Assembly (NCBI GenBank): GCA_025232375.1 | Contig: CP060419.1 | Coordinates: 681,001 to 745,000, forward strand | Length of the DNA stretch: 64,000 nucleotides | DNA from: Pseudoxanthomonas sp. NC8 | GTDB taxonomy: Bacteria > Pseudomonadota > Gammaproteobacteria > Xanthomonadales > Xanthomonadaceae | Reading direction: 5' to 3' | Part shown: positions 1-16,877 of the stretch, piece by piece | How the letters are laid out: each line of letters begins with the position of its first letter | Numbering within the stretch: the first letter of the stretch is position 1 | The notes under the pieces: model-generated | The model's database searches: none | What the model was told of the DNA's origin: nothing | The model's input: the letters and a program-made list of their open reading frames with translations, nothing else | Program-made: the position numbers and the translations under genes

Positions 1-324
1 CAGCGCCGTAAGGCGCAGGCCGAAGTGCATGCGTGGCTGTCGGAATTCGCCAAGGCGGCCGGGATCGGCGACCCCGCGGTCAAGGTCGAGCAGGTGCTCG
101 ACGTTCCCGGCCAGCCGGCATCATATTGCAGGTGCTGGCGCGCCTGGAAGGCAAGCTGCCCGCGTTCGGGCATTCCGCCCTGATCCGTGGCATCGCCCGT
201 GGCCTGCCCTGGATCCAGGTCGAGCGCCTGGAAATCGGCGAGCAGGCGCGGGTCAGCCTTGGTCGTACGTTCCTACTACCGGCGCGGAGCCGGCTACGCC
301 GCCGCTCCGGAGAACGTGCAATGA
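1..324 (+). CDS. gspM: Type II secretion protein M (GspM/XpsM), 3' part
   Basis: This is the C-terminal part of an inner-membrane platform protein of the type II secretion system; the 5' end lies outside the window. Two reading frames have to be joined. The first (1-120) gives a helical, Ala-rich stretch (AEVHAWLSEF). After a break near 115-125 the frame continues with VLARLEGKLP and WIQVERLEIGEQARVSL. A second break at about 254 (ccttggt for expected cctggt) restores the ending VVRSYYRRG...ENVQ and a TGA at 322-324. The TGA overlaps the ATG of the next gene (ATGA), as expected in a gsp operon. Family assignment rests mostly on position before gspN-gspD and on the C-terminal ferredoxin-like pattern, so it is moderate. 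Confidence 0.55.
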
Positions 325-817
325 CGGCGGGATGGCGGTTGTCTTTGGCCGCGGTTGCGGCGTTCCTGCTCGGCGTTCTGGCGCAGTGGCTGCTGGGTGA
401 GGGGCCGCGGCCGGGATCCTCGGAAGTGCCGACCCTTCCCGCCTTAAGCAGTTGCCCGCGGGCAATGGCCCCGATTTCGAGAAACTCGACGCGCGCTGGG
501 AGGCGAGGGCGCCCTGGCCGAAGGCCCCCGAGCCGAGCAAGTCCGCGGCGCCGGAAGAGGATGTGCCCGGGCCGGTCCCGGTGGGCGTGACCCGCAGCAA
601 GCGCGGCACGGTCGCGATCTTCAGCGTGCCGGGAGCGGGTAAGGTCGCGCTCGGCGCGGGCGATGCGCTTCCGGGTGGCGGCAACGTGACCCACGTGTCC
701 GGCCTCAGCGTCGAGTGGACGGATGCCAAGGGCGAGTTGCAGCGACGCGAGATGTTCAATACCTACAAAGTCCAGGAAGAGGCGCCGCCGGCTCCGAAGT
801 CCAGGAGACGCCGCTGA
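321..817 (+). CDS. gspN: Type II secretion protein N (GspN/GspC-like)
   Basis: Predicted single-pass inner-membrane protein of about 165 residues. A hydrophobic anchor lies at residues 7-25 (LSLAAVAAFLLGVLAQWLL). A Pro-rich linker follows, then a small beta-rich periplasmic domain (about residues 90-150) with RGTVAIFSVPG and a GDALPGG turn. That turn resembles the HR domain of GspC, which contacts the secretin. One break near 443-446 (gccttaagcag, probably gccctgaagcag) joins the halves. The ATG at 321 overlaps the stop of gspM, and the stop at 815-817 precedes gspD by about 55 bases. The Xanthomonas order gspM-gspN-gspD supports the name; a GspC-like role is equally compatible. Confidence 0.6.
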
Positions 818-871
818 TGCTTGACCTCCATATCTTAGTATGGGCGTGCCGCCCATGCAATCCGGAAGAAA

Positions 872-3172
872 ATGTTCGATCAAACCGTACGACCGGGGAG
901 TCCCGGCAATACCCGGAGGTCCAGTCTCGGCAAGGTCAGGACGACGCTGACCTCGGTCCTGATCGGCCTGTTCGTGGCGGCCTGCGCGTCCCAGCCCGTC
1001 CTGATGCCCGAACCGCTGCGCCCGCCGAAGCAGGAGTCGGCTGTGGACGAGACCCCAGGTGCGCCTTGGCTCGACCGAGCATTCGCGCCCGCGGATCGAA
1101 CCGGGTCCGGCACCGAGCGTCTCCACCCCGGCCCGGATGCAGCCGGAAAAGGAGCAGAGCCGGATCCCGCCGATGACCCGCACCCAGCCGGTCTCGCTGG
1201 TGCTGGATGGCGTGCCGCTCGACAGCTTCATCAACATCGTCTACGGCATGGAACTGGGGCTGCCGGTGCAGATCGACCAGTCCCTGCGCAACCGTTCCGA
1301 ACTGCTGAGCCTGAGCTTGGCCAAGCCGATGCCGCCAGAGCAGGCCTTCCGCGTCGCGGAAGAGGTGCTGCGCAATTACAACGTGCGCGTCGAGGAACTG
1401 GGTGGCGTGTTGCGCTTCCTGCCGACGGACCAGCGCTCCAGTGACCAGGGGAGCTGTTCTTCACCCGTTCCCTGCCCGACGTGCCGGCGGGCCAGCGCAC
1501 GGCCTTCGTGGCCATGCCGCTGCAGTACCGGCGCCCGGCCTCGGTCATCCCCAAGGCCAAGGAGCTGTTCGGCGGAAAGTCGGTCAACTTCGCCCCGCTC
1601 GTCGAGGCGAACGCCGTGCTCATCAGCGGTCCGGGCGGTGCGGTGCGCGGGGCGATGCAGGCCATCGACGCGCTGGACCAGTCCGTGCTGCGCGACAAGT
1701 ACTCGATGCGGATCAATCCGCTGTACCTGCCCGCCGAACTGCTGGCGCGCGAGCTCAACGAGGTGCTCACCGCACAGGGTGTCGCGGTCAAGTCCGGTCC
1801 GGGCGAGGCGGGCGCACTCAATTTCGTGCCGGTCAACTCGGCCAATGCGCTGATCGTGTTCGCCAACAGCCAGCAGGCGCTGGATATGGTGGCCGGTTGG
1901 GTGGAGCGCCTGGACCAGCCGAGCGACAGTGCCGGCGGTGGTGGCATGTACGTATATGCGGTACGCCACACCACCGTGGATACCATGCTGCCCGTCCTCC
2001 AGGCGTTGGCCGGAAGCACTGCAATGCCCGCTGCCGACGGCACGGTGCCCGCGGCAACGGATGCAACGGGTTCGGCAGCGGCGAACACGGCGGCTGGCGC
2101 GCGCGCGCGCCCGGGTCGGGCGACGGCGGTAAGCGGGTTTGGCGGCCACCTGGCCGCGGACAGCGTGCGCAACATGATCGTGTTCCGGGCGATGCCCAGA
2201 GCTGGCGTGCCCTGCAGGGCGTGTTGGCGCGCCTGGACCAGCCGGTAAGGCAGGTGATGATCGAAGTCACGGTGGCCGAAGTGACCCTCACCGACGAACT
2301 GCGGCACGGCGTCGAGTGGGCGCTGAAGAACATCGAGATCAACGGCATGTCCGGCCCGCTCACTGCGCTGAGGAGCATCGCCACGCCCGGCGGCCTGCAA
2401 TGGGCGGCCATGTCGTCGTCCCGGTAAGGTCAAGGCGACCCTCGACCTGTTCGCCAAGGACAGCCGGGTGACCATCCTGTCGACCCCGCGCATCATGGTG
2501 AAGAGCGGCGAGACGGCCAGTATCGATGTTGGCACCGAGGTGCCCATCATCACCAGCCGGCAGGCCACGGCCGCCGACCTGCCCACCAGTGGCGGCGACA
2601 GTTCCATCCTGCAGTCGATCCAGTACCGCAAGACGGGCACGCTGCTCGACATCGAGGCGGTTGTCCATTCGGGCCAGCGGGTGGACCTGAGGATCTCGCA
2701 GGAGGTCAGCGAGGCCACCCCGACCGACACCAGCGAAATCTCCTCGCCCAGCATCCTCAGCCGCAAGCTGCAGACAAGCCTGAGCCTTGGCCGATGGCCA
2801 GAGCACGCTGCTGGGTGGCCTGATCTCCAGCACCAGCAGCGACGGCAAGACCAAGGTGCCATTGCTGGGCGACATCCCGATTCTGGGACGTGCGTTCCAG
2901 AACCGTACCAAGAGCGGGGTCAGGACCGAGCTGCTGCTGCTGATCACCCCTATGTGCTGGAAGACGCCACCCAGGGTGGAAGACATCTCCCGCGCCGTGC
3001 GCAGCCGTTTCGGGCAGTACGACGGGGCTGGCCCGGGAGGCCGGACAACCCGGCCGAGACGGGCGAAGTGCCCGTAGCCCTGCCGCCCGAGACGCCGCCA
3101 CTGCAGCCGGTGCCGGGCGCCCCCGCAACGGGAGCCCAAGGCGGCACGCCACCGCCCGCGACCGGGCACTAG
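872..3172 (+). CDS. gspD: Type II secretion outer-membrane secretin GspD
   Basis: Secretin subunit that forms the outer-membrane channel of type II secretion. The N-terminus (LIGLFVAACAS) looks like a lipoprotein signal with the lipobox Cys near residue 43. N0 and N1-N3 domains follow (SLVLDGVPLDSFINIVYG; MPLQYRRPASVIPKAKELFG; INPLYLPAELLARELNEVL). The C-terminal secretin domain has VPIITSRQ, LQSIQYRKTGTLLDIEA, LLGGLIS and VPLLGDIPILGRAF. A low-complexity Ala/Gly stretch near 2040-2130 sits between N domains. The protein is about 760 residues after joining at least eight breaks (about 1064, 1450, 2190, 2412, 2782, 2952, 2975, 3035); those at 1064 and 2782 are ccttggc for cctggc. The ATG at 872 is used, but an ATG at 817 overlapping the gspN stop is an alternative. 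Confidence 0.85.
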
Positions 3173-3370
3173 CACTCGCCACGGTGTTCCAGAGGCAGCA
3201 GTACGCGCGCCCGCCAAGGCGATCGCGGGCGGGCGCCGCCGTGGCCGCGGTCAAGGCATGGGCGGGGCCTTCGGCCCCCGGCTCCTTGATGCCGTTTTGG
3301 CAGTCCGATCCCCCTTTTTTTGTGCGGATTGCCGATTTGCCGCTGATGTTCCAGAACGGCAGCTGAGCGG

Positions 3371-3399
3371 TTGACACTTTTTGAATGGTGGCTTTATTC
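3371..3399 (+). promoter_or_regulatory. Sigma-70-like promoter of the surface-protein gene
   Basis: A consensus -35 hexamer TTGACA (3371-3376) is followed after 17 bases by TTATTC (3394-3399). It sits in the 428-base gap between gspD and the surface-protein gene, leaving a roughly 200-base untranslated leader. This is the best consensus promoter I see in the window and agrees with a highly expressed product. The rest of the 3173-3599 gap holds a GC-rich hairpin near 3262-3278 and no other gene I can support. Confidence 0.6.
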
Positions 3400-3599
3400 T
3401 GGCCCCAACATCTGGGGACTGCGCTGGGGTGTGGTTTGCATGCGCAGGGTGAATCCGGACGTGGGGTTGGGGTTTTTGTTGCTGAACTTCCGCGTTTGGT
3501 TCTGTATCGGCGCCGGTACGCGCATGTGCGAACGGCGAGTGGTGCCCACGATGTGTGTGTCATGACGAATAACAACCCTAAGCTTAGGAGCAAAAAAGC

Positions 3600-5014
3600 A
3601 TGAAGTTCTTCAACAAGCAGGTCCTGGCCGCCGCAGTCGTCGGCGTGCTGGCGTCCGGCAACGCGCTGGCCAAGGCGGAGATCGATACCGCAGCGACCGT
3701 CTACGCGAAGGAAATCGCGATGCCGGCCACCCTGACCGTTCCGGTGATTATAGGCCTGGGCTACAACTTCAACAACGCCGAGCTGCGTTACGCGTGCATC
3801 AAGCTCGACGGTGCCACCCCGGTCGACGCCACCGTTACCCCGGTGACCAGCGATGCGGGCGTGACCGTCGGCTCGGTGAACGTGAACAACAACGTCGCGT
3901 TCTTCACCCTGACCAACACCCCTGGCCGCCGGCACCCCGACTGAAGACATCACCGTCAGCCTGCCGACGCTGGAGTTCGTGGTCCAGAGCCAGAACGACA
4001 CCGTGTATGCCACCGTCGGCCTGTACGACAACCCGGCCGCTGCCGGCGCGTGCAACGGCGGTACGCAGCTGATCCCGGGCTCGTACGACCAAGGAGAAGC
4101 TGATCTCGTTCGCCCCGAGCTTCACGTTCACCACCGACCCGAACAAGGCGACTGCCTCGGTCGAGGTCGACCCGTCGTTCACCGGCTTCAAGTACCCGGT
4201 CACCGGCGTCAGCGCCAGCGCGGACGAAGCCCGTCTGGCCTGGGCCCAGATCGAGCTGGTTCCGGACGTCCGCCTGAAGGCCGACGGCACCCCGATCGCC
4301 CTGACCGACATCTTCCCGACCGCGGCCGAGCTGGCTGTCGAGGGTGATTTCGGTGACTGGCTGTCTGACACCGTGTTCGATGGCACTCCGGGCACCGTTG
4401 CCGGCGACACCGCCACCTGGACCGTGGACCCGACCGCCTGGGCGCAGACCTGTGGGTCTACACCGCCATCCCGAACGCTGAGGAAATCCCGGCCGGCATC
4501 TACACCGCTGGCCTGACCGTGACCCCGAACGCGGGTTACGACCTGGGCGCCGGTGACAACGAGGAAGTGACCCTGGTCCCGTCGATCGACGAGTCGCTGA
4601 ACACCACCGACAACAGCGTGGAAGACCTGTCGGCCACCGCCGGCCAGATCGTCCAGGATGGCGTCCGCCTGCAGACCCCGCTGGTGCAGCTGGCCGGTGG
4701 CGATTGGCTGGCCCGCCTGGTGATCAGCAACACCGGCACCAAGGACCGCACCTTCGTCCTGAAGGCGCAGACCGAAGACGGCAACAGCGTCACCGTCCCG
4801 AACACCGTCTACACGGTCAAGGCCGGCAAGACCTACGTGTTCGAGAACCTTGGCCAACGTCCTGACCTTCTCGGGCCGTGCCCGCGGCACCGTGGTCGCC
4901 GTGGTTGCCGGTCCGGAGCAGGAGATCAAGGGCATCTACCAGCTCGTCAACACCTCCGCCAACACGATCAGCAACATCAACCTGATCAACCAGAACGGCG
5001 GCACCGGCCACTAA
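3600..5014 (+). CDS. Secreted surface protein of unknown family
   Basis: About 470 residues with a clear signal peptide (MKFFNKQVLAAAVVGVLASG, cleavage after ALA). The mature part is acidic and rich in Thr, Val, Asn and Asp, with beta-type segments (SFTFTTDP, LARLVISNTGTKDRTFVLKA), and ends NQNGGTGH. It has only a few Cys. A strong ribosome site (taggag, seven A) precedes the ATG. Breaks at about 3925, 4090, 4447 and 4857 disrupt the frame; three lie at inferred CCTGG/CCAGG sites. Codon choice is strongly C-ending, it has its own promoter and a strong terminator, and it follows the secretin gene directly. This suggests an abundant exported or S-layer-like protein, perhaps a type II secretion substrate. 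I do not recognise the family; secretion is well supported, the role is inferred. Confidence 0.7.
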
Positions 5015-5044
5015 TCGGCGGTAGTTCGATCCAAAGCTGTAAAG

Positions 5045-5075
5045 GAAGGGCCCGCTTCGGCGGGCCCTTCTCTTT
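5045..5075 (+). terminator. Rho-independent terminator after surface protein
   Basis: An 11-base perfect stem GAAGGGCCCGC (5045-5055) with a TTCG tetraloop and GCGGGCCCTTC (5060-5070), followed by TCTTT. It lies about 30 bases after the surface-protein stop codon, so that gene forms a single-gene transcription unit. Confidence 0.85.
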
Positions 5076-5131
5076 CTGATCGCGGGAACCCGGGTGGGCG
5101 CGGCTGTCCCGCCACGCCGGCAGGCCCTACG

Positions 5132-6293
5132 ATGGCGCCTTGGCAACACGCGCGGGAATGTCGTCCCGACGGGGGAAGTGGTGGGACCGGATCGATCCGG
5201 CACGGCTGCCGGAAAGCTGGATGTCCTTGATGGCTTGCGCGGCGTGGCGGTGCTGGTCGTGCTGGCCTCGCACTACTCGTCGGCCGGCCTGTTTCAGGCC
5301 CGCGCTGCACGGCGTCGGCAAGAGCGGCGTCTATCTCTTCTTCGTGCTCAGCAGCTACCTGCTGACGCGGAACCTGCTGCGCCTCCCGCCTGCCGCCCTG
5401 GGCGAAGGCCTGACCTTAGCTCGACTACGCACTGCGCCGCGTGCTGCGCATCTGGCCGCTGTACCTCGTCGTCCTTGGCCGTCAGCTGGGCGGCGCATGG
5501 CCAGTCCTGGTCGGTGTTCTACGACATCGATACAGGCTCGCTGTGGCAACACCTTGGCACTGCGCGAAGGCCGGAGCGTCCTATGGAGCATTCCGGTCGA
5601 ATTCAAGTTCTATTTCCTGCTACCGGTTCTTGCCCTGGCGCTCGCCGGAATGGCGCGTTCCCGATACTCCCTCGTGCTGCAGCTGGCGGTCTTCATCGCG
5701 GCGCTGGTTGCGGTGAACCTGTACTTTAGCCGCCGTCCGGATCGCTCGAAAACGAAGTCCGCCTGTGGCCGTACCTGGCTGTCTTCCTGTGCGGCGCTTT
5801 CGCCGCTCGCGTCGATGAATGGCAGGCCGTCGCCGGTCCGCGCCCCCGCCTGTGGACGGGATTGGGAATGCTGGCCCTGGTGGCATGGTGCGTGGCGATT
5901 CCCGCGGTGTGGTGCCGGCTGCGCGGCATACCGTTCGAGGCTTCCATCACCCGCACGTGGTACCTGTACTTCGGCCTGCTGTGGTCGGTGCTGCTGCTGG
6001 CGCTGGTCCACGGCCAACCCTGTTTGCGGCGCTGCTTCGCGTGGCGGCCACTGCGATGGGTGGGCCTGATCAGCTTCAGCCTGTACCTGTGGCACATGCC
6101 GGTCCTGTCCGCGCTCCTTCGCCTCGGCGTGGCCGAGCGTCTCCCGTGGTTGGCGCCGGGCCTGGTGCTGGGACTCACGCTCGCGGCGGCGTGGGTGTCG
6201 TGGCGCCTGTTCGAGCGACCGCTCTGGGGCATCCGCGCACGTACTCCGGCTCGGCCCCCGGCTGATGCCGCGCACGGTGCAGGCGATCGCTAG
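5132..6293 (+). CDS. Acyltransferase family 3 (OafA/YrhL-like) membrane protein
   Basis: Integral membrane O-acyltransferase of about 385 residues that would acylate a surface polysaccharide. It begins with the family signature LDGLRGVAVLVVLASHY (catalytic His in the first membrane segment), then GVYLFFVLSSYLL. Further hydrophobic segments and LISFSLYLWHMPVL near the C-terminus are typical of AT3 proteins. The chosen ATG at 5132 is in frame only if gcgccttggc (5137-5146) is corrected to gcgcctggc. Other breaks lie at about 5310, 5415 (ccttag for cctgg), 5472, 5552 and 5748. It starts the surface-glycan block that ends at etfA, so O-antigen or exopolysaccharide acetylation is the likely job. 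Confidence 0.75.
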
Positions 6294-6441
6294 ACCGCCA
6301 AGGCAGACGCTGCAGCCCGCCTGAACTGGGGCCAGCGCGGCAGACAGGTGTCCGGAAAGGGTCTGCTACCATGCCCGGCTCCGTGGCCTCCGGCGACGCA
6401 AGTGTCGAGGCCGCGCCCCCGCAAACGCTGGAGCCGCATCG

Positions 6442-7032
6442 ATGCAGACCACGACCCGACGCTTCATCACCGCCGAGTTCGAAAAGGCCCTCGCGAACTT
6501 CCAGGCAATGGCGGCCAGCGAGGCGCTGCATGCGCAGATCGCAGAGGCAGTGGCGCTGTGCGTGGCGGCGTTGCGTGATGGCAAGAAGATCCTCTTCGCC
6601 GGCAACGGTGGCAGCGCGGCCGACGCGCAGCACTGGGCGGGCGAGCTTGTCAGCCGCTTCTACTACGACCGTCCGGGCTTGCCGGCGATCGCGCTGACCA
6701 CCGACACCTCGATCCTGACCGCCATCGGCAACGACTACGGCTACGACTACACGTTCGCGCGCCAGATCGAGGCGCTGGGCCAGGCGGGCGACGTCTTCGT
6801 GGCGATCTCCACCTCGGGTCGATCCAAGAACATCCTCCGCGCGCTGGACGCGGCCGAGCAGAAGGGCGTGAAGGTCATCGGATTCACCGGTGCCGGTGGC
6901 GGCGAAATGGCCGCACGCTGTGCGATCTGCTTCAAGGTCCCGTCCGACGAGACGCCGCGCATCCAGGAAGGCCACGAGTTCATCGGCCACCTGCTGTGCG
7001 CGTTGATCGAAAGCGAGGTCTTCCCGCGCTGA
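6442..7032 (+). CDS. gmhA: D-sedoheptulose 7-phosphate isomerase
   Basis: SIS-domain isomerase of 196 residues converting sedoheptulose 7-phosphate to D-glycero-D-manno-heptose 7-phosphate, the first step of nucleotide-activated heptose synthesis. Recognisable motifs are FAGNGGSAADAQHWAGELVS near residues 50-70, LTTDTSILTAIGNDYGYD, the phosphate-binding AISTSGRSKNI near 119-129, and the His/Glu-containing RIQEGHEFIGH near the C-terminus. This frame is intact over its full normal length. The stop TGA overlaps the next ATG (TGATG), coupling it to hddC. Confidence 0.93.
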   Translation: MQTTTRRFITAEFEKALANFQAMAASEALHAQIAEAVALCVAALRDGKKILFAGNGGSAADAQHWAGELVSRFYYDRPGLPAIALTTDTSILTAIGNDYGYDYTFARQIEALGQAGDVFVAISTSGRSKNILRALDAAEQKGVKVIGFTGAGGGEMAARCAICFKVPSDETPRIQEGHEFIGHLLCALIESEVFPR

Positions 7033-7735
7033 TGGCAGCCGACGAAGCCATCATCCTCGTCGGGGGCTGGGGACCCGGCTGCGTCCCGTCGTTGCCGACC
7101 TGCCAAAGCCGCTAGCGCCCGTCGCAGGTCGCCCTTCCTTGGCATGGCTGCTCGACGCGGGCATGCGCGCCGGGTTGCGCCGCGTCATCCTCGCGACCGG
7201 ATACCGTTCCGGGCAGATCGAACAGGTGGTCGGTCATCGCTGGGGCGACATCGAAATCGCCTATTCGCGGGAGGATGAGCCGCTGGGCACCGGTGGTGCC
7301 ATCGGCCTGGCGCTGGGGCAGGTCAGGGGCGACGGCGTCCACCTGGCCAATGGCGACACGTTCCTGCGGTACCAGCCATCCGCCCCGGAGGCGGCTACCC
7401 GCGCGTCCGGATGCGTAATGGGCATCGCCCTGGCCCGCGTCGAGGACGTGGGGCGTTACGGCGCGGTCGAGATCACGGGCGGAAAGGTGACGGGTTTCAG
7501 CGAGAAGGGTGGCAGCGGCCCGGGTCTCATCAACGCCGGCAGCTACTACCTCGCACGCGAAGCGTTCGATCGCCTGCCTCGGGAGGCGGCGTGGTCGTTC
7601 GAGGAACGGTTGCTGCGGCCCTGGAGCGAACGTGGCGAGGTCGCTGCCTTCGAGGCGACCTCCGATTTCATCGACATCGGCGTGCCCGAGGACTATGCCC
7701 GGGCCCAGGCGATGTTCGCGGCGACGGGAGCATGA
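7032..7735 (+). CDS. hddC: D-glycero-D-manno-heptose 1-phosphate nucleotidyltransferase
   Basis: Nucleotidyltransferase of about 233 residues. The N-terminus, after restoring one base near 7063, reads GGLGTRLRPVVADLPKPLAP, the sugar-phosphate nucleotidyltransferase signature. Then follow GRPFLAWLLDAG (the text has cccttccttggc for ccccttcctggc), EDEPLGTGGAIGLAL and NGDTFL. The C-terminal DIGVPEDYARAQ is typical of HddC/RfbA-like enzymes. Sitting between gmhA and gmhB it most likely makes GDP-D-glycero-alpha-D-manno-heptose; an ADP-transferring enzyme is less likely because the kinase half of HldE is absent. Its stop overlaps the gmhB start (ATGA). Confidence 0.85.
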
Positions 7736-8347
7736 GCGTCGCGGTGTGCGATCCGGTCGTCACGGAGGCGCCCGCGGCGGCCGGCTGGACGAGCACGGGG
7801 CGCCAGAAGGCGCTGTTCCTCGATCGCGATGGCGTGATCAACGTCAACCACGGCTACGTGCATTCGGCCGAACGCACCGAATGGGTGGCGGGCATCTTCG
7901 ACCTTGCCCGCGCGGCGCGGGCAGCCGGCTACGTGCTGGTGGTGGTCACCAATAAGGCGGGCATCGCGCGGGGCTTCTACACGCACTCCCAGTTCGAGGA
8001 CTACACCCGCTGGATGCACGCGCGCTTCGCCGACGAGGGCGCGCCTATCTGGCGACCTACTACTGCCCGCATCACCCGGAAGCGGGCATCGGCGAGCTGA
8101 GGGTGGAGTGCGGCTGCCGCAAGCCGGCGCCCGGCATGCTGCTGCGTGCGCTCGGCGACTATCGCCTGGACGCCTCCACCTCGTTCCTGGTGGGAGACTC
8201 GACATCGGACATCCAGGCAGCCTGGCTGCGCGCATCGGCGCGGCCGTGCGCCTGGAAGGCCCGTCGCCGTCGCATCGGACGACAATCGCGGCGCTGGAAC
8301 AGTGGCAGCGCTCAACACGCAACGGAGAAGGTGAAGTGAATGCATGA
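7732..8347 (+). CDS. gmhB: Heptose bisphosphate phosphatase (GmhB-type HAD)
   Basis: HAD-superfamily phosphatase of about 204 residues removing the 7-phosphate from heptose 1,7-bisphosphate. Motif I is LDRDGVIN. Motif II should be VVTNQAGIARG; the text gives TNKAG because ccagg is written taagg at about 7951. The zinc loop CPHHPEAG...CGCRKP and motif IV VGDSTSDIQAA follow. Breaks lie near 8044 and 8222, the latter one C short in an inferred ccctgg. The gene overlaps hddC upstream and the next gene downstream (ATG 8340), so gmhA-hddC-gmhB are one transcription unit. The heptose kinase gene hddA is not in the window. Confidence 0.88.
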
Positions 8348-10679
8348 GGCTGCCTCGCGCATCGAGGGCGCGCGCGTCGGGGGAACCGGACGCTTCGGCC
8401 CGCTGGACCACTGCCTTTGCTGGTGCCTGGCCATCCTCGCGATGGCATGGGCGTACCACCCCTATTTCTTCGGCGACGAGATCTCGCCGCTGCTGGACAC
8501 GCGCAACGCGGACGGCTTCCTCGACTCGCTGCGGGTGATATCGCAGTACAAGCCGCGGCTGATATTCAATGCAATCTGGGCATTGGGCGGCGAATCCGGA
8601 TGGCCGCGCTGGGCGTATGCGGGCGTCAATGCGGCGGCGATGGCGGCCACCTGCTCACTGGCGGCGATGCTGGTCGACCGCCACGCGGCGGCCAGTCGCC
8701 TGCAGGCCCAACCCCTGGTGGGCTGCATCGTCGGCTCCCGCTTTGCGGCCATGCTCTACTTCGACTACGTTGCGGGGATCATCGAAACCCTGAGCATCGC
8801 CCTGTTGCTGGGGGTGATCGCTCTGTCGATCCCAGCAATGACCTCGGGGCGCCTGGCGGCATGGCTTGGCGCCGTCGGACTTGCGGTGGCAATGGTGCTG
8901 GTTCACGAGCGTTTCATGGCCGGGACCGCGGCGCTGGCTGTCGTCCTGGCGGTGCATGCGGGGCTGCTCGACCGTCGCCCACGGCCATGGTGGACGTGGC
9001 CGATGATAGGACTGCTGGGTGCTTTGCCGCCGGTGGTGTTATAGGGTTGATCGAGCTGATGGGATCGCTGCCGGCATCCACAGGCACTTCGGGAAGCGCC
9101 GTGGTCATCGGTCCGCACACGCCGGTGATCTTCCTCACCTATGTGGCGAATGCCTTCTTCGGCATGAACTTCGGCAAGCCGTGGTTCGTCGGCCGGCTCA
9201 ATATGGGCGAACAGACGGGCTGGTGGCTGTCGGTGGTCTATGCCGTCGCGTTTGCATGTGCTTTGGCTGGGCTGGCTGGCGAGCGTGCGGCGGAACCGGC
9301 GCGCCGTGGCCGGCGCACTCGGCCTGTTGACCATGGCGGGCGGCATGCTGGTGATGGCCAGCCTGCTCAGGGAAGGACGCCAGGAGGCGCGATGGGTGTT
9401 TCCGGTCGGCATACTGGTCACGATGCTGTACTTCGCTGCCGCTTCCGGTCGGGTGCGCGTCGCGCTGCTGTCGCTGTCGTTGTCGCTGTCGCTCGCGCAT
9501 TGGGCCAGCGGCGCGTTGTCGGCGACCGCGAACCTCTATGAGTCGCGCACGGCACGCAACCTGGCATCCGGGGTGAATCACATGGCGCCCGCCGGCCGCC
9601 ATGCCCTGCTCATGGGGATGGGCGAAGGCGTGGCGGCGGTCTGGTCGGTGGGCGAGTACGAGGGCGTGGAAGAGTTTGCCCGCCTCAACTTCAGGATGCC
9701 GCTGACGCTGGAGATCCACAGGCAGGGCGTGGCCGTCGGCGACGTGGACGTGGGCCTGCTCAGGACGGGCACCGACGACGATGGCGCGGCGGTGTTCGCC
9801 CAGCTCCGGGGGCGCGACTTCCAGGCGATGCTGGACCCTGCATCGATCGAGGCCTGGCGTGGAAGATCGGAGCACGCCGCCACGCTCGGCGAAGGCCGGG
9901 CGTGGAATGGATGGAAGTGGGCAGGCCAGCCGCAATTCCAGGACGAGGCGCTGCTGTTGCGGCCGATCGCGGATTTCGCCGGGTTCGTGGAGCGGCCGGT
10001 GGCATCGCTCGTTGGACGCAACCTGGTCTACCCTGGCCCGGTCGAGCGATCCGGCCAAGCCTCCTCGCGAATGCGCCTGCAGGTCAACTGGATGGGAGAC
10101 GCAGGGCGCTTCATCGATGCCAGCATCGTGGTGGTCGACGTCGGCGCGAGGGCGAAGAAGCACGTGATGCCACTGGCTCCGCCTGCAGGTGCGGCAAGCG
10201 GGCTGATCTACGCCAGCCTGCACGATGGAGAGAGCCAGCCGGTGCTGCTGGAGTCGGTGTCGCTCGAAGCGACGCCGATGCGGGCGCTCGGCACTGGCGG
10301 ACACTGGCCCGAATGGCGCTGGGCCGGTGCGGCATCGGTCGCGCAGGACGGCGTGACCTTGCCGGGCGACCGCGCCGCCGCTGGACTGGTCGCGGTCCCC
10401 GTAGGCCGGCTGGACAACCGCATCCTGGTCTATCGCGCGCGTGCTGCGCGGGAGGGCACACGGCCGACGATGCGCCTGCAGGTCAACTGGAGCGACGGGC
10501 GCGGCCGGTTCCTCGGTGCTTCGATCCAGACGGTGCAGGTCGGCCAGGAAGCCGCGAACTACCCGATGCTGGTGCAGGCTCCGGCACGCGCCGCCACGGG
10601 CGAGGTCTATGCAAGCCTCCACGACGGGGAAACCAACGGCGTGGTCTTCGAATCCGTGGACCTGTTGGACAGGCAGTGA
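8340..10679 (+). CDS. GtrC-like polytopic membrane protein with duplicated C-terminal domain
   Basis: Large protein of about 780 residues. The first ~400 residues hold many hydrophobic segments (LAILAMAWAYHPYFFGDEIS; VGLAVAMVLVHERFMAGTAAL; LSLSLSLSLAHWASGAL) and an early Asp/Glu pair, the layout of a GT-C type glycosyltransferase such as serotype-converting GtrC. The last ~330 residues are soluble and contain two copies of a module of about 120 residues: RMRLQVNW...GRFIDASI...GLIYASLHDGES and TMRLQVNW...GRFLGASI...GEVYASLHDGET. Two breaks (about 9040 and 9265) separate it into frames. It sits directly before gtrA, supporting a role in glycan side-branch transfer. I know of no characterised homologue of the duplicated domain. 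Confidence 0.6.
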
Positions 10680-10684
10680 CGCCG

Positions 10685-11172
10685 ATGGAGCGGAAAGACG
10701 GATTCGACGGCGGCCAGCGGCCCGGCGCGGGAGGCGAACCCGGCATCCTGATGCGGCTCGTCAAGGACCAGCGCGTACTTTTCCTCATGGTCGGCGGGGC
10801 CAACACCGCCTTCAGTACCGCGCTGTTCGCCGGGCTGGTGCTGCTGTTCGGACCCGAGGTGCCGTCGGCGGTGAGCCTTGGCATCGCCTGGGTGGTGTCG
10901 CTCGTCCCTGGTGTTCTTCGTCTACCGCCGCCTTGTGTTCCGGGTCACCGGCAACGCCTGGCGCGATTTCATCCGTTTCACCAGCGTCAACATCGGGAGC
11001 CTGCTGCTCAATGCGGTGGCGCTGACCCTTCTGTCCGACGTGGCGGGTCTTCCACCGATCCCGACCCAGATCGTCATCACGGTCCTTGGTGGTGGTATTC
11101 AACTACGTCGGCCATCGGTATTTTTCGTTTCGGCGCAGGCCGTCCGCGGACGGCGAAGGAAAGCGAGAATGA
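10685..11172 (+). CDS. gtrA: GtrA-family flippase/membrane protein
   Basis: Small four-helix membrane protein of about 162 residues. FLMVGGANTAFSTALFAGLV (helix 1) is the GtrA family signature; VSLGIAWVVSLVLVFFVYRR, LLLNAVALTLLSDV and VITVLVVVFNYVGHRYFSFR follow, ending with the family-typical basic tail. GtrA proteins flip undecaprenyl-phosphate-linked sugars or partner GtrB/ArnC-type transferases. Breaks at 10906 (gtccctgg for gtcctgg) and 11091 (ccttggt for cctggt) split the text. The stop TGA at 11170-11172 overlaps the next ATG. The likely partner is the GtrB-like transferase on the opposite strand at 12018-12980. Confidence 0.85.
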
Positions 11173-11998
11173 GCCCGCGCGTATCGGTCGTGGTGCCGGC
11201 GTACAGAAATGCAGAGTACCTCGCGACCACCCTGGATTCGATCCTACCTGGGACTACACCGACTACGAACTGGTGGTGGCGGACCACTCGTCCACGGATG
11301 GAAGTGATGCCATCCTTGCGCGCTATGCGGACCATCCGCGGGTGCGCGTGCTCGAGCCGACTGCGGCCGGTGGTGGCGCGCTGGCCAACTGGAGCCGGGT
11401 CAGTGCACATGCGCGTGGCGAGTTCATCAAGCTGGTGTGCGGAGACGACCTGATCGCACCGAGTGCCTTGCGCGAGCAGGTCGGGGCATTGGATGCGAAT
11501 CCGGGCGCGGTGTTCGTGGCATCGCCGCGCAACCTCATCGACGCGCAAGGCAATGTGGTCATCCGCAATCGTGGCCTAGCGGGCTTGCAGGGCCGGGTTT
11601 CCGGAAGGGAGGCCGTGCGGCGGTCCGTCCGCGCCGGGACCAACATCTTCGGCGAGCCGGGATGCGTGATGTTCCGGCGCGAGCTGCTGGAGCGCGAGGG
11701 TGGCTGGGACAACAGCTCGCCCTACCTGATCGACTAAGGCCACCTATACCCGGATCATGCTCCACGGCGACATGGTGGCCCTGCCGCGCACGCTGGCCAG
11801 TTTCCGGATCAGCAACACCCAGTGGAGCGTGCGCCTGGTGAAGGAACAGGCGGCGCAGGCGGTCGCGTTCCACGAGGCGCTGCGCGCGCGCGATCCATCG
11901 CTGCTCTCGGCCAGGACGTGCGCGTGGGCAACGCCATGGCACGGCTGATGGCGCAGGCGCGCAGGCTGACCTACCTGTGGCTGCGCCGTCGGATGTGA
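11169..11998 (+). CDS. Family 2 glycosyltransferase
   Basis: GT-A fold transferase of about 276 residues. It starts MSPRVSVVVPAYRNAEYLATTLDSIL, continues LVVADHSSTDGS (nucleotide-binding region), then KLVCGDDLIAPSALREQV with the metal-binding DD, and GWDNSSPYLIDQATY. The in-frame stop at 11734 is an artefact of gaccagg written as gactaagg. Further breaks lie near 11250 and 11900. It ends LTYLWLRRRM with TGA at 11996-11998, 20 bases before the convergent transferase on the other strand. Sugar donor and acceptor cannot be told; context says O-antigen or surface glycan. Confidence 0.8.
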
Positions 11999-12017
11999 CG
12001 CAGCCCGGCGCGGCGCG

Positions 12018-12980
12018 TCAGTCGCGCCCGCCTTCGTCCACGTTGACCGTCCGCCCCACCACGTACTGCGGGCGGTTGTTGATGTTCAGCAGCACCCGGC
12101 CGGTGTATTCGCCGATCGCGCCCAGCGCCAGCAGCTGCAGGCCGCCCATGAACAGGATGGTGACGATCAGCGAGGCCCAGCCGACCGGAAGTTCGGGATG
12201 GCGCAGCTTCTGCACCAGCACCGCGATGGCGACCACGAACGCCAGGCACGATGCCAGCGCGCCGGCCAGCGAGACCAGTCGAAGGGGCACGATGGAGAAG
12301 CTGGTAGCCATCTGCAGCCACAGCGATATCGACTTGCGCAGGCTGTAGCCGGAGCGGCCGTCGTTGCGGGCGTGGTGGGTCACGGTCAGGGTGTTGATCC
12401 GGCCCGGGCTGGTGCTCTGCAGGAGCAGGCCGTCGACGTAGACGAACGGGCCGTGGTAGCGCAGCGCTTCGTCGCGCAGGCCGCGGGTGAAGCCGCGGAA
12501 CGGGGACAGGTACAGCCCCTTGGGCTTCTTGAGCAGGTAGCGGGCGACGAGGTCGTTGAACCGGCTGCCCGCGCGCTTCCACAGCGCGTGCCTGCGCTCG
12601 GGGAACTGCGCGTAGACCAGGTCGGCCCCCGCGCGCAGCGCCTCGACGATGCGCGGCACGTCGTCGGGATCGTGCTGCAGGTCGTCGTCCATGGTGACGA
12701 TGTGGCGGCCGTTGGCGACGCCGAGGCCGGCCATGATCGCGTTGTGCTGCCCTGCATTGCGCCGCAGGTCCAGGCCGCGCAGCCACGGGCGCGCGGCCGC
12801 GAGCGACACGATCACGTTCCACGCATCGTCCGGCCCGCAATCGTGGACCAGGATGACCTCGAAATTGCCGGCGCCGAGCGCCGGCAGCAGGGCTGCCTCC
12901 AGCCGCTCGGCCAGCGCCGGCAGGATGGTGGCGCTGCCGTAGACGGGGATGACGACCGAAAGCTCAGGGGCGTGGGGCAT
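12018..12980 (-). CDS. GtrB/DPM-type polyprenyl-phosphate glycosyltransferase
   Basis: Intact frame of 320 residues. The GT2 domain comes first ([47 protein letters not shown] with the catalytic DDD). GLYLSPFRGFTRGLRD and two C-terminal membrane helices follow (LASCLAFVVAIAVLVQK; LIVTILFMGGLQLLALGAIG), then GEYTGRVLLNINNRPQYVV. This is the ArnC/GtrB architecture, which loads a sugar onto undecaprenyl phosphate. The ATG overlaps the end of the upstream epimerase by 17 bases, indicating translational coupling. A gtrA gene lies about 850 bases away on the other strand. Confidence 0.88.
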   Translation of the reverse strand: MPHAPELSVVIPVYGSATILPALAERLEAALLPALGAGNFEVILVHDCGPDDAWNVIVSLAAARPWLRGLDLRRNAGQHNAIMAGLGVANGRHIVTMDDDLQHDPDDVPRIVEALRAGADLVYAQFPERRHALWKRAGSRFNDLVARYLLKKPKGLYLSPFRGFTRGLRDEALRYHGPFVYVDGLLLQSTSPGRINTLTVTHHARNDGRSGYSLRKSISLWLQMATSFSIVPLRLVSLAGALASCLAFVVAIAVLVQKLRHPELPVGWASLIVTILFMGGLQLLALGAIGEYTGRVLLNINNRPQYVVGRTVNVDEGGRD

Positions 12981-13653
12981 AGTATTTCCGGATGACGTTC
13001 TGGGCGTAGCCGCGGCCAGGTCGATGCCCAGGCGTCCGGCGACCACCGGGGCCTCGGAGGCGTCGATGTGCAGCGGACTGCCCAGCGGCTCGGTCGTGCA
13101 TCGGGCCTGCCTGCCGAGCACGCGCTCGAAGATCGCCACGATCTCCGGCATCGGCAGCGGATCGGCGGAGGCTATCGAGAATACGCGACGCCCGCCAGCG
13201 GCCGCGCCGATCAGTTCGGCGCCGATCGCGACGACATCATCCACGTCGATGAGGTTGCGCTGGGCATTCGCCCAGACCGTGAACGGCTCGCCGGTAAGGA
13301 TGCGGTCGCGGAGGTAATTGGTCAGGGTGTTCGGGTTCGCGGTGACGCCGACCACCTGCGGCAGGCGCAGGACTAAGGCCGTTGGGCGACGCCGCGACCA
13401 GTTCCTCCATGGCGCGCTTGTGGCGCATGTAGGGGGTGCTCGCGGCGTTCTCAGGCGTGCTGGCGCAGCTGCCGAAATATACGAGGCGCGTGCCCGCATC
13501 CAGCAGCGGCACCAGCATCGCGCGCTCGCGCTCGAAGCCCTCCGCGGCCGTCGCCAGCGAATTGGAGACGCCGGAAGCGAAGATGATGACGTCCGGGTCC
13601 GCCGCATAGCGCGAAGCGAAGGCGCGCGCCAGCAGTCCCTGTCCGACGATCAT
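12964..13653 (-). CDS. NAD-dependent nucleotide-sugar epimerase/dehydratase-like protein
   Basis: Short-chain-type Rossmann protein of about 230 residues. The N-terminus [13 protein letters not shown] is a short nucleotide-binding turn, followed by [21 protein letters not shown] (Ser of the active site region), [13 protein letters not shown] (the YxxxK pair is in modified spacing), [16 protein letters not shown] and [13 protein letters not shown]. One break at 13376 (ccttag for cctgg) and one near 13005 are corrected. The true C-terminus reads [13 protein letters not shown] and its stop lies inside the next gene's start region. It is shorter than typical epimerases (about 310 aa). Sugar-nucleotide reduction or epimerisation for the surface glycan is inferred. 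Confidence 0.7.
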
Positions 13654-13684
13654 TCCCGCCGGGCTTCGGCCGGGGCGGCGCAGG

Positions 13685-14640
13685 TCACAGCGCCGCTTCC
13701 AGTTCCGGCAGCAGCGCGAACAGGTCGCCGACCAAGGCCGATGTCCGCGACCTCGAAGATCGCCGCTTCCGGGTCCTTGTTGATCGCCACGATCGTGCCG
13801 GCGTCCTTGATGCCGGTCAGGTGCTGGATCGCGCCGGAGATGCCGATCGCCACGTACAGTTCCGGCGCGATGATCTTGCCGGTCTGGCCGACCTGCATCT
13901 CGTTGGGGCAGTAGCCGGCATCGACGGCCGCGCGCGAGGCGCCGACCGCCGCGCCCAGCTTGTCGGCCAGGTTGTAGATGATGCGGAAGTTCTCTTCCGA
14001 GCCGACGCCGCGGCCACCTGACACGACGCGGCGCGCGCTCTGCAGGTCCGGGCGGTCGGAAGAGGCGGCGGTAAGGCCGAGATGGCGGGTGTGCGAGGGC
14101 AGGGCCGCGTCGATCGTGGCTGCCTCCACCGGGGCGCTGCCGCCGCGCGCCGCTTCCGGCCACGACGCGGTGCGCACAGTGGCGACTACGGCCTTGGCCG
14201 GCAGGGGCTTCGAGGGTGATGATCGCGTTGCCGGCATAGATCGGGCGCTTGAACGTGTGGCTGCCTTCGACCGCCATCAGGTCGGAGACCTGGTTGACGC
14301 CGAGCAGGGCGGCCACGACCGGCATCAGGTCCTTGCCGAACGTGGTGGACGGGCCGAACACGTGGCTGTAGCCGGCGGCCAGCTGCGCGACCTGCGGGCC
14401 GAGCACCTGGGCGATGGCATGGGCGTTGGCGGGGTTGGCCACGGCCAGCACGCGGGCGACGCCGGCGATCTGCGCGGCCTCGGCGGCCACGCCCGCCGGA
14501 TCGGCGGCGAGGACGACAATGTCGATGGACGCCGGCGACAACGCCTGCGCGGCGCTGACGGTGCGCGCGGTGGAGGCGTTGAGCTTGCCGTCCAGGTGTT
14601 CGGCGACGACGAGTACTTTCACTGCGGGAACCTCGCTCAT
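13685..14640 (-). CDS. etfA: Electron transfer flavoprotein alpha subunit
   Basis: FAD-binding alpha subunit of about 318 residues; it passes electrons from acyl-CoA and other dehydrogenases to ETF:ubiquinone oxidoreductase. Features seen: [14 protein letters not shown] at the N-terminus, [31 protein letters not shown], the FAD-binding [20 protein letters not shown] and [21 protein letters not shown], and the terminal [19 protein letters not shown]. Breaks at 14210 (ggccaagg for ggccagg) and 13733 (ccttggt for cctggt). The start overlaps the etfB stop by one base. In Xanthomonas etfA marks one border of the O-antigen locus, which fits the glycan genes on its downstream side. Confidence 0.93.
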
Positions 14641-15385
14641 TACAGCAACCCCTTCTGCTTCAGCGCGGCGACCAGCTCGGCCGCGTCCTTCACCATCACG
14701 CCCTTGCTGCGCCTTGGCCGGCGGTGCGTAGGTGGTGGTCTTCAGTTCCGGACCCGCATCCACGCCCAGCTCGGCCAGCGGCAGCGTCTCCAGCGGCTTG
14801 CTCTTGGCCTTCATGATGTCCGGCAGCTTGATGAAGCGCGGCTCGTTGAGGCGCAGGTCGGTGGTGACTACCGCCGGCAGGTCGACTCCAGGGTTCCAGG
14901 CCGGCGTCGACCTCGCGGGTCACGGTGGCTTTGCCGTCCGCGACCTCGACCTTCGAGGCGAACGTGGCCTGGGGGCGGCCCCACAGCGTGGCCAGCATCT
15001 GCCCGGTCTGGTTGGCGTCGTCGTCGATGGCCTGCTTGCCCAGGATCACCAGGTCCGGCTGCTCCTTCTCCACCAGCTTCAGCAGCGCACGGGCGGCGGC
15101 CAGCGGCTGCACCGGCTGGTCGGTGACCACGTGGAGGGCGCGGTTGGCGCCCATCGCAAAACCATTGCGCAGGTGCGCCTGGGCATCGGCGGGGGCGATC
15201 GTGGCCACCACCACCTCGGTGGCGATGCCCTTGTCGCGCAGGCGCAGGGCTTCCTCGAGGGCGATCTCGTCGAACGGATTGGGCGAGAGCTTGACGCCCT
15301 CGGTGACCACGCCGGAGCCGTCCGGCTTGACCTGGATGCGGACGTTGTAGTCCACGACGCGCTTGTAGGCGACCAGGATCTTCAT
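14640..15385 (-). CDS. etfB: Electron transfer flavoprotein beta subunit
   Basis: Beta (AMP-binding) subunit of about 248 residues. It begins MKILVAYKRVVDYNVRIQVK. LSPNPFDEIALEEALRLRD, VILGKQAIDDDANQTGQ and FIKLPDIMKAKSKPL are diagnostic of ETF-beta. Two breaks: about 14888 (near an inferred gccctggag region) and 14705 (gccaagg for gccagg); the corrected C-terminus is GVMVKDAAELVAALKQKGLL. It forms an operon with etfA through a TAATG junction. The ETF pair, the CoA-transferase genes and the ETF dehydrogenase within 7 kb together suggest a short acyl/ketone oxidation module. Confidence 0.93.
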
Positions 15386-15527
15386 CGTGCGGGGATTCCT
15401 TGCGAAAGCTTCGACAGGCCCGGTCGCGCTGGCTGCCCGGGGCGGGACCCCGATTCTACCGGACAGCCTCGACCCATGCGCTTGGGTATGGATGGGCTGT
15501 GCGGCCCGGCCTGCTGCCGCCTGCCGC

Positions 15528-16877
15528 TCAGTCGCCCCGGACCAGGCCGCCGAGCTCCCGGGTGCGGACCTCGAGCAGGCCGGCATCGCCGCGCGTTTCC
15601 ACGTTCAGGCGCAACAGCGGCTCGGTGTTGGAGCTGCGCAGGTTGAAGCGCCAGTCGCCGAAATCGGCGCTGAGCCCATCGGTGTGGTCCAGCGTGGGCC
15701 GCAGCGGGGCGTAGTGGTCGAGCACGCGCGCCACGGCCGCCTTCGCGTCGGCCACCCGGAAGTTGATCTCGCCGCTGCACGGGAACTTGCGCACGCGGTC
15801 CTCGACCAGGTCGCCAGGCTGCGGCCGCTGGTCGAGACCAGGCTGGCGATCAGCAGCCAGGGAATCATTCCCGAATCGGCATAGGCGAACTCGCGGAAGT
15901 AGTGGTGCGCGCTCATCTCGCCGCCGTAGACCGCGTCCTCGGCGCGCATCTTTTCCTTGATGAAGGCATGGCCGCTCTTGCACAGCACCGGGATGCCGCC
16001 GGCCTGCTCGACCTGTTCGACCGTGTTCCACACCAGTCGCGGGTCGTGCACAACCTTGCCGCCGGGCTTCTTGGTAAGGATCGCCTGGGCCAGCAGGCCG
16101 ACCAAGGTAGTAGCCCTCGATGAAGCGGCCCTGCTCGTCGAAGAAGAAGCAGCGGTCGAAATCGCCGTCCCAGGCGATGCCGAAATCGGCGCCGTGTTCA
16201 CGCACCGCGTCGGCGGTGGCCTGGCGGTTGTCGGGCAGGAGCGGGTTGGGGATGCCGTTGGGGAAGCTGCCGTCGGGCTCGTGGAAGACGCGGACGAACT
16301 CGAACGGCAGGTGCGGCGCCAGCAGGTCGACGATCGTACCGGCGCCGCCGTTGCCGGCGTTGACCACCAGCTTCAGCGGCCTGAGCGCGGAGGCGTCCAC
16401 GTACGAGAGCAGGTGTGCGACGAAGGCCGACTTGTCCGGATGGGCGCGTTCGCCGGCGCGGGCGGCCGCGGCCGGCGCAGTGTCGGCCTCGGCCGCGTCG
16501 GAGATGGCGAACAGGCCGGTATCGGAGGAGATCGGGCGGGCCTGCGCCTTGACCAGCTTCATGCCGTTGTAGTCCATCGGGTTGTGGCTGGCGGTGACCA
16601 TCACCCCGCCCGCGGCACCCGGGTGGTCGACCTGGAAGTAGACCTCTTCGGTTCCGCACAGGCCGATGTCGATCACCTCGCGCCCCTTGCCGCGCAGGCC
16701 CAGCGACAGCGCCGCCTGCAGCGCCGGGCTGCTCAGGCGCACGTCGTGGCCGAGTACGACCGGACCGGGGCCCAGCTGGTCGGCCAGCGCCACGCCGATC
16801 CGGCGGGCCAGGTCCTCGTCCAGTTCGTCCGGCACGCGGCCGCGGATGTCGTAGGCCTTGAAGGCGGGAAGGGTCAT
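15528..16877 (-). CDS. xanA: Phosphomannomutase/phosphoglucomutase
   Basis: Alpha-D-phosphohexomutase of about 449 residues that interconverts sugar 1- and 6-phosphates to feed nucleotide-sugar synthesis. [16 protein letters not shown] starts domain 1. The catalytic Ser is in [14 protein letters not shown] (about residues 98-111), the metal loop is [10 protein letters not shown], the sugar-binding loop is [11 protein letters not shown], and the phosphate loop is [12 protein letters not shown]. Breaks near 16096 (ccttggt for cctggt) and 15817 (one G short after cctgg). The text ATCCTTACC near 16075 is probably a same-length miscall of atcctggcc. In Xanthomonas the equivalent gene is xanA, next to lpsIJ; the symbol is by analogy. 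Confidence 0.88.

Follow-up and report, generated by a model that had tools for sequence, protein, structure and literature searches.

A probable surface-layer protein gene behind a divergent type II secretin gene in Xanthomonadaceae, and its conserved leader

The gene that directly follows the type II secretin gene gspD in the window (the whole 64,000-nt stretch of DNA analysed) probably encodes an S-layer protein or another major surface protein, exported by a type II secretion system (T2SS) with a secretin of the type referred to here as GspD-A. Our full reading, of an abundant, self-assembling S-layer protein exported by this T2SS and translated from an mRNA with a structured leader, is drawn from sequence comparison, and we give it a probability of roughly 0.68; export by the GspD-A system, abundance, lattice formation and an effect of the leader are all parts that we infer. 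In the mechanism proposed, the protein would be expressed on a large scale from its own promoter, would cross the inner membrane by Sec and the outer membrane through the divergent T2SS that has its secretin gene immediately in front of this one, and would then self-assemble, most likely as an S-layer. The leader, ~150 nt long and with a palindromic ribosome site behind it, would make the message more stable and determine or control how it is translated. If this is true, the Xanthomonadaceae gain a specific S-layer candidate that brings its own export machine, and the leader becomes a new handle on the mass production of one bacterial surface protein.

The gene, its protein and its expression signals

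The putative surface protein gene (positions 3600..5014, + strand, ~472 aa) was delimited with the reading-frame list and a homologue alignment, and is present in the window as five pieces whose frame changes from one to the next (3600-3926, 3925-4092, 4094-4450, 4450-4854 and 4853-5011). An intact homologue of 477 aa occupies the corresponding position in Xanthomonas sp. XNM01 (L003:7098-8531), where it forms a single open frame in the same setting; the five pieces align to it with 55-85% identity, which bears out the claim of the initial annotation that a real gene lies directly behind the secretin gene. The gene order in XNM01 is gspD, the gene, an acyltransferase gene and then a SIS isomerase gene, the last of these recognised by eye. 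Many genes within window positions 1-16000 are split by frame changes, gspD and the surface protein gene among them, and this suggests sequencing error. The frame breaks in the gene are apparently of that kind, and the assembly of the window's genome (3.54 Mb in a single contig, estimated completeness 57%) is probably an error-rich, long-read one.

The window protein begins with a signal peptide of the Sec type, judged by eye (MKFFNKQVLAAAVVGVLASGNALA), and its pieces contain 12.9% T, 11.8% A, 10.5% V, 8.9% G, 6.2% N and 2.7% K, with a pI of 4.08. The protein had initially been described as acidic and Thr/Asn/Val-rich; the acidity, Thr and Val hold, while Asn is outranked by Ala and Gly. Twelve proteins from linked loci, taken without 24 residues each, span 42.3-47.3 kDa, with a pI of 4.05-5.16, 9.6-13.8% T and 0-4.1% K. 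An acidic, Thr/Ala/Gly/Val-rich and Lys-poor composition is typical of S-layer proteins, and the size, the acidity, the richness in these residues and the scarcity of Lys all agree with such a protein. Structure predictions for the XNM01 protein and the window pieces were of low confidence (mean pLDDT 42.8 and 59.3), and a fold search with the C-terminal model returned no match at E up to 0.001, its listing consisting mostly of beta-sandwich proteins.

The family had been called unrecognised, and profile searches of the window pieces and of intact homologues agree: no Pfam or NCBIfam family exceeded its cut-off in the window pieces, and no domain did so in the intact linked proteins scanned. 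An alignment of 29 members (A2) gave weak matches only in Pfam and NCBIfam, and a PDB search with the A2 profile gave no match up to E 1. DUF5719 touches 11 of the 29 members with a best E of 3.6e-5 and gave no usable assignment; the two member matches for which bit scores were obtained fell under its cut-off. Conservation is highest towards the C-terminus, where most members end in a sequence like SNHVMVRPGTN.

The expression signals described initially are in place. A promoter-like site, TTGACA (3371-3376) and TATTCT (3395-3400) separated by 18 nt (3371..3400, + strand), agrees with the consensus at 10 of 12 positions, and one such site was found where shuffled sequence leads one to expect 0.2; a TTGAC-type hexamer also lies 202-245 nt upstream of the ATG in all 15 linked copies. 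The ribosome site is the Shine-Dalgarno AGGAG at 3586-3590, and it is overlapped by the palindrome CCTAAGCTTAGG (3577-3588; the two together span 3577..3590, + strand). The form CCTAAGCTTAGGAG occurs in 13 of the 15 linked copies; in L015 the site is altered yet palindromic, and L056 has a shorter form. Folding predicts a short hairpin across the ribosome site for the window and for L016 but none for L015, and this hairpin is no stronger than in shuffles. An intrinsic terminator with a 12-pair stem (5044..5071, + strand) was located by hairpin scan and linked-locus comparison. The scan found two terminators against 1.5 expected, a count that by itself proves nothing; 13 of 14 linked loci, however, have a similar strong hairpin with a T-rich tail 3' of the gene, and in the fourteenth the contig ends 46 nt past the gene.

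The C-biased codons noted initially recur in six intact homologues, in which third-base C amounts to 0.49-0.62 vs 0.42-0.47 in their gspD. Codon adaptation to ribosomal genes, with a reference of ribosomal-region ORFs that were picked automatically and of which some are clearly misread, was 0.81 in G011, 0.78 in G007, 0.81 in G035 and 0.73 in G262, in each of which the gene ranked first among the 11-14 ORFs per locus; it was 0.60 in G250 (rank 2) and 0.68 in G070, where the gene ranked sixth of 12 ORFs. Ribosomal-protein-like codon use is found in four of the six genomes tested. The S-layer-like size and composition, together with such codons in most of the genomes tested, support by comparison the earlier proposal that this is probably an abundant surface protein.

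The secretion system and the distribution of the family

The gspD gene of the window (872..3172, + strand) encodes a T2SS secretin of the GspD-A type and is broken by frameshifts, its start having been set by eye from a lipoprotein-like N-terminus. The GspD profile matches window positions 1445-2191 (682445-683191 in the genome G000), and Pfam Secretin pieces match 2453-2951 (683453-683951); the intact counterpart in XNM01 (L003:4332-6644) matches Pfam Secretin with 148 bits. Upstream of the gene, XNM01 has relatives of gspE, gspF, gspK and gspD. Among the products, Pfam Secretin and T2SSK_1st are over cut-off and the best NCBIfam matches are GspD, GspE, GspF and GspK, with scores under the equivalog cut-offs (275-288 vs 351 bits for three GspD proteins, 566.5 vs 630.25 for GspE, 258.9 vs 424 for GspF and 37.1 vs 130 for GspK). 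The proteins in the gspL and gspM positions of XNM01 have no Pfam or NCBIfam match. These low scores and unmatched positions identify the secretion system as a divergent T2SS.

Across 297 Xanthomonadaceae genomes, a profile built from three homologues (A1) found the family in 17 genomes and in eight of 54 genera. A GspD profile (A3) at E 1e-80 matched 43 genomes, 15 of them at 1134-1267 bits, 27 at 535-583 bits, and the broken gene of the window's genome at 339 bits. Eleven GspD-A sequences went into A3, which makes their scores high partly by construction; four GspD-A proteins from outside the training set (G081, G149, G213 and G263) reached 1134-1227 bits over their full length. A tree of 44 GspD proteins, leaving out that of the window's genome, separated GspD-A (15 rows, support 100/100) from GspD-B (27 rows, 100/99) and two outgroup rows, with long branches to both the outgroup and GspD-A, on which the program issued a warning.

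The family, GspD-A and the leader described below occur together in 16 of the 297 genomes and are jointly absent from 280, the protein being found alone in one; these counts cover sequences that share ancestry. The gene directly follows gspD on the same strand in the window and in the 14 loci fetched, at a spacing of 228-450 nt in the 14 loci and ~427 nt in the window, and in G081 the leader and the first codons are followed by the contig end. G312, the remaining genome with the family, is in 490 contigs; its copy is partial and sits at the edge of one of them, and the genome gave no GspD or leader match. Conversely, no family member was detected at E up to 10 at the 27 GspD-B loci, searched mostly ~4-6 kb to each side and less at contig ends, and the 27 GspD-B genomes gave no strong leader match. 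Both states are present in genera g1, g3, g10 and g47. Since metB-like genes lie near A loci (L015 and L016) and near B loci (assigned by Pfam in L117 and L121 and by eye in the others), the two secretin types may be alternatives at one site. The 16 cassette genomes and the 27 genomes with the other secretin and without the protein would, if the reading is right, form a matched set for studying how a T2SS recognises one dedicated substrate. At six GspD-B loci (L126, L130, L131, L133, L134 and L141) a small lipoprotein-like gene of ~180-186 aa comes next after the secretin gene, at a distance of up to ~40 nt; its product is possibly a pilotin or another secretin partner.

A machine component, too, could be strictly tied to one GspD type and encoded next to it, and the protein might then be an accessory part of the T2SS, assisting the secretin in the periplasm or outer membrane for example, and not cargo. 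We consider this very improbable: the gene has its own promoter-like site, terminator and leader, its codons are those of highly abundant proteins, genus g61 has additional paralogues away from gspD that are fused to other domains, and the protein is poorly conserved (28-34% identity to the first sequence in most family members) whereas GspD retains 49-60%. Cargo of the GspD-A system is what we favour. Position, an occurrence tied to one GspD type, and published S-layer genes that adjoin T2SS clusters together argue, by comparison, for the dedicated T2SS substrate that the initial annotation had proposed.

The same annotation had suggested glycosylation from the surface-glycan locus nearby, and this part did not stand: GspD-B loci without the protein are adjoined by similar glycan genes (metB with ABC-2 or sulfotransferase-like genes, partly confirmed by Pfam), so the glycan neighbourhood is not specific to the gene. 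In the window, a SIS-domain isomerase gene and a nucleotidyltransferase gene lie behind the acyltransferase gene at 6442-7735; they resemble genes of a heptose-nucleotide pathway.

In genus g61 up to at least five family matches occur per genome, and many of the copies are proteins of ~620-830 aa that carry the module behind other N-terminal parts. Larger, seemingly exported proteins that end in the module, often in tandem, are encoded at L049, L053, L054, L057, L061-L064, L066 and L081-L084, mostly from g61, with L057 from g3; one of the five fused-module proteins scanned has a beta-propeller over the Pfam cut-off. A class sample of 369 genomes contained, besides the window's genome, two relatives in f79/g140, one in f150/g332 and one marginal match (G682, E 6.7e-4), and an order sample of 225 genomes added one distant match (G699, E 1.8e-24). 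Distant relatives outside the family are likewise found inside T2SS clusters or 2-3 kb behind them (L077:9051-10817, L075:9046-10596 and L076:9601-11022), the one at L077 (589 aa) behind a gspK-like gene.

The g61 copies, with the module at the C-terminus of other domains, suggest a general surface or matrix module, and they bear on a further alternative: a non-crystalline biofilm matrix or adhesion protein leaving by the same T2SS, perhaps controlled by c-di-GMP through the N-terminal domain of GspE. The GspE of XNM01 (L145:12769-14625) indeed carries an MshE-related c-di-GMP-binding motif over its cut-off (58.9 vs 38 bits), and S-layer and matrix roles overlap in Slr4, as the available text of its description has it (PMC7821379). 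The motif is, however, visible by eye in GspD-A and GspD-B genomes alike and so is nothing special; c-di-GMP control peculiar to the GspD-A system was rejected on that ground. One compact protein of 42-47 kDa per locus also suits a lattice at least equally, as for known S-layer proteins. A matrix protein of this kind appears to us quite unlikely, and an S-layer protein remains the preferred interpretation.

The leader upstream of the gene

S-layer mRNAs can carry long leaders. A conserved leader of ~150 nt (3403..3554, + strand) begins directly 3' of the promoter and is probably a structured RNA, with a long closing helix, a variable arm and a palindrome hairpin near 3505-3520. Its conserved blocks, each with variants, are CTGGGGACTGCGC, TGCATGCGCAG, the palindrome GTGCCGGCGCCGGCAC, a block ending in GTCCAG, and the ribosome-site form given above. 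In seven locus pairs, compared by crude global alignment, the leader is 70-78% identical vs 62-72% for coding DNA.

Folded singly, 13 of the 15 leader sequences share core pairs. A 34-pair structure from these same folds was subjected to a covariation test on 14 distinct rows with 500 shuffles; common descent of the sequences limits both this test and the single folds. Of the leader cells, 88.7% were paired vs 86.1% in shuffles (sd 0.6; 0/500 as high), and the covariation score was 0.254 vs 0.212 (0/500). Double changes affected nine pairs vs 5.5 in shuffles (18/500 as high) and 17 cells vs 7.9 (0/500). When the strands were slid, the paired share was 29-49%, a comparison in which the structure is favoured by having been derived from these same sequences. 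The fold is supported by the sequences, short of proof.

The conserved blocks might instead be DNA sites for regulatory proteins, with no folded RNA, a view that concerns the leader only. It is encouraged by the two DNA palindromes, that within the leader and that at the ribosome site, by folding-energy z-scores that range from -5.63 to +0.19 and are weak in several copies (-1.55 in the window, -1.04 in L003 and +0.19 in L056), and by the number of further pair types, which showed no excess over shuffles (32 vs 31.8; 273/500 as high). Against it stand the same core pairs in 13 of 15 sequences folded singly, the joint changes of the two distant strands of the closing helix, and the drop in pairing on sliding, and we regard this view as unlikely. 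A conserved folded RNA is, probably, what the leader forms.

A covariance model (R1) was trained on 15 of the 16 leader copies, with only L143 held out. The window leader, a training sequence, scored 98.7 bits; on 62 loci the model found the 15 training copies and the held-out L143 at 84.3 bits, the next best match scoring 18.2 bits. Across the 297 genomes it found a single strong copy (84.3-130.1 bits) per GspD-A genome, in all 16 of these and in no other. The six weak matches (29.4-32.3 bits, E 0.0017-0.0078 per genome) compare with ~3 expected by chance, and one of them, in the GspD-B genome G023, lies on a different contig from its gspD. The unlinked paralogue loci searched and L075-L077 gave chance-level matches only. 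A known Rfam riboswitch or leader was rejected as its identity, no family having matched where searched: window positions 3365-3600 gave no Rfam match up to E 5, and six of the 14 linked loci gave none at the gathering score.

A literature search covering mostly titles and the openings of abstracts returned no description of the leader, nor of an S-layer in this genus. New here are the leader and the module copies fused to other domains in one genus. More tentatively, and at odds clearly below even, the leader may represent a class of cis-regulatory RNA not described before that serves one gene alone, the surface-layer gene of the T2SS cassette, tuning or sensing something on behalf of the most abundant secreted protein; the cassette of GspD-A type T2SS, leader and surface protein may be inherited or exchanged as a unit, and one genus may have made the module a portable C-terminal tag on a beta-propeller and other extracellular proteins.

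Comparison with known T2SS-linked S-layer systems

Among the features of S-layer proteins of this type, a gene adjoining a T2SS cluster was found at the 14 fetched loci and in the window, and a signal peptide (by eye) was found together with no known domain; the mass of 42.3-47.3 kDa is slightly under the usual ~45-60 kDa. The systems below were compared by description only, from the parts of each source that were available.

In Beta- and Gammaproteobacteria, Lysobacter included, npdA is described behind ~12 gsp genes, and NpdA as having a signal peptide, no conserved domain and a mature mass of 52.4 kDa; it is reported from Delftia, Paracidovorax and others, also Lysobacter and Dokdonella (PMC10765051), and it coats vesicle-filled nanopods (PMC3110197). 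The position behind a gsp cluster, the signal peptide and the lack of a known domain are shared with the family described here, whose members are somewhat smaller at 42-47 kDa and have a leader, whereas the available text of PMC10765051 makes no mention of a leader or untranslated region. In Aeromonas, vapA lies directly behind the secretin gene spsD, with spsE-L upstream, inside the O-antigen cluster (PMC4413209). This matches the position of our gene behind gspD; VapA is the larger protein, at ~49-52 kDa. The slr4 gene of Pseudoalteromonas tunicata lies beside a T2SS operon, and Slr4 has a signal peptide and no Pfam domain and is the most abundant protein, according to the available text (PMC7821379). 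The T2SS neighbour, the signal peptide and the lack of a Pfam domain recur in the window family, while Slr4 differs in its mass of ~59 kDa and its marine group; the distant relative at L077 comes nearest to it in size and layout.
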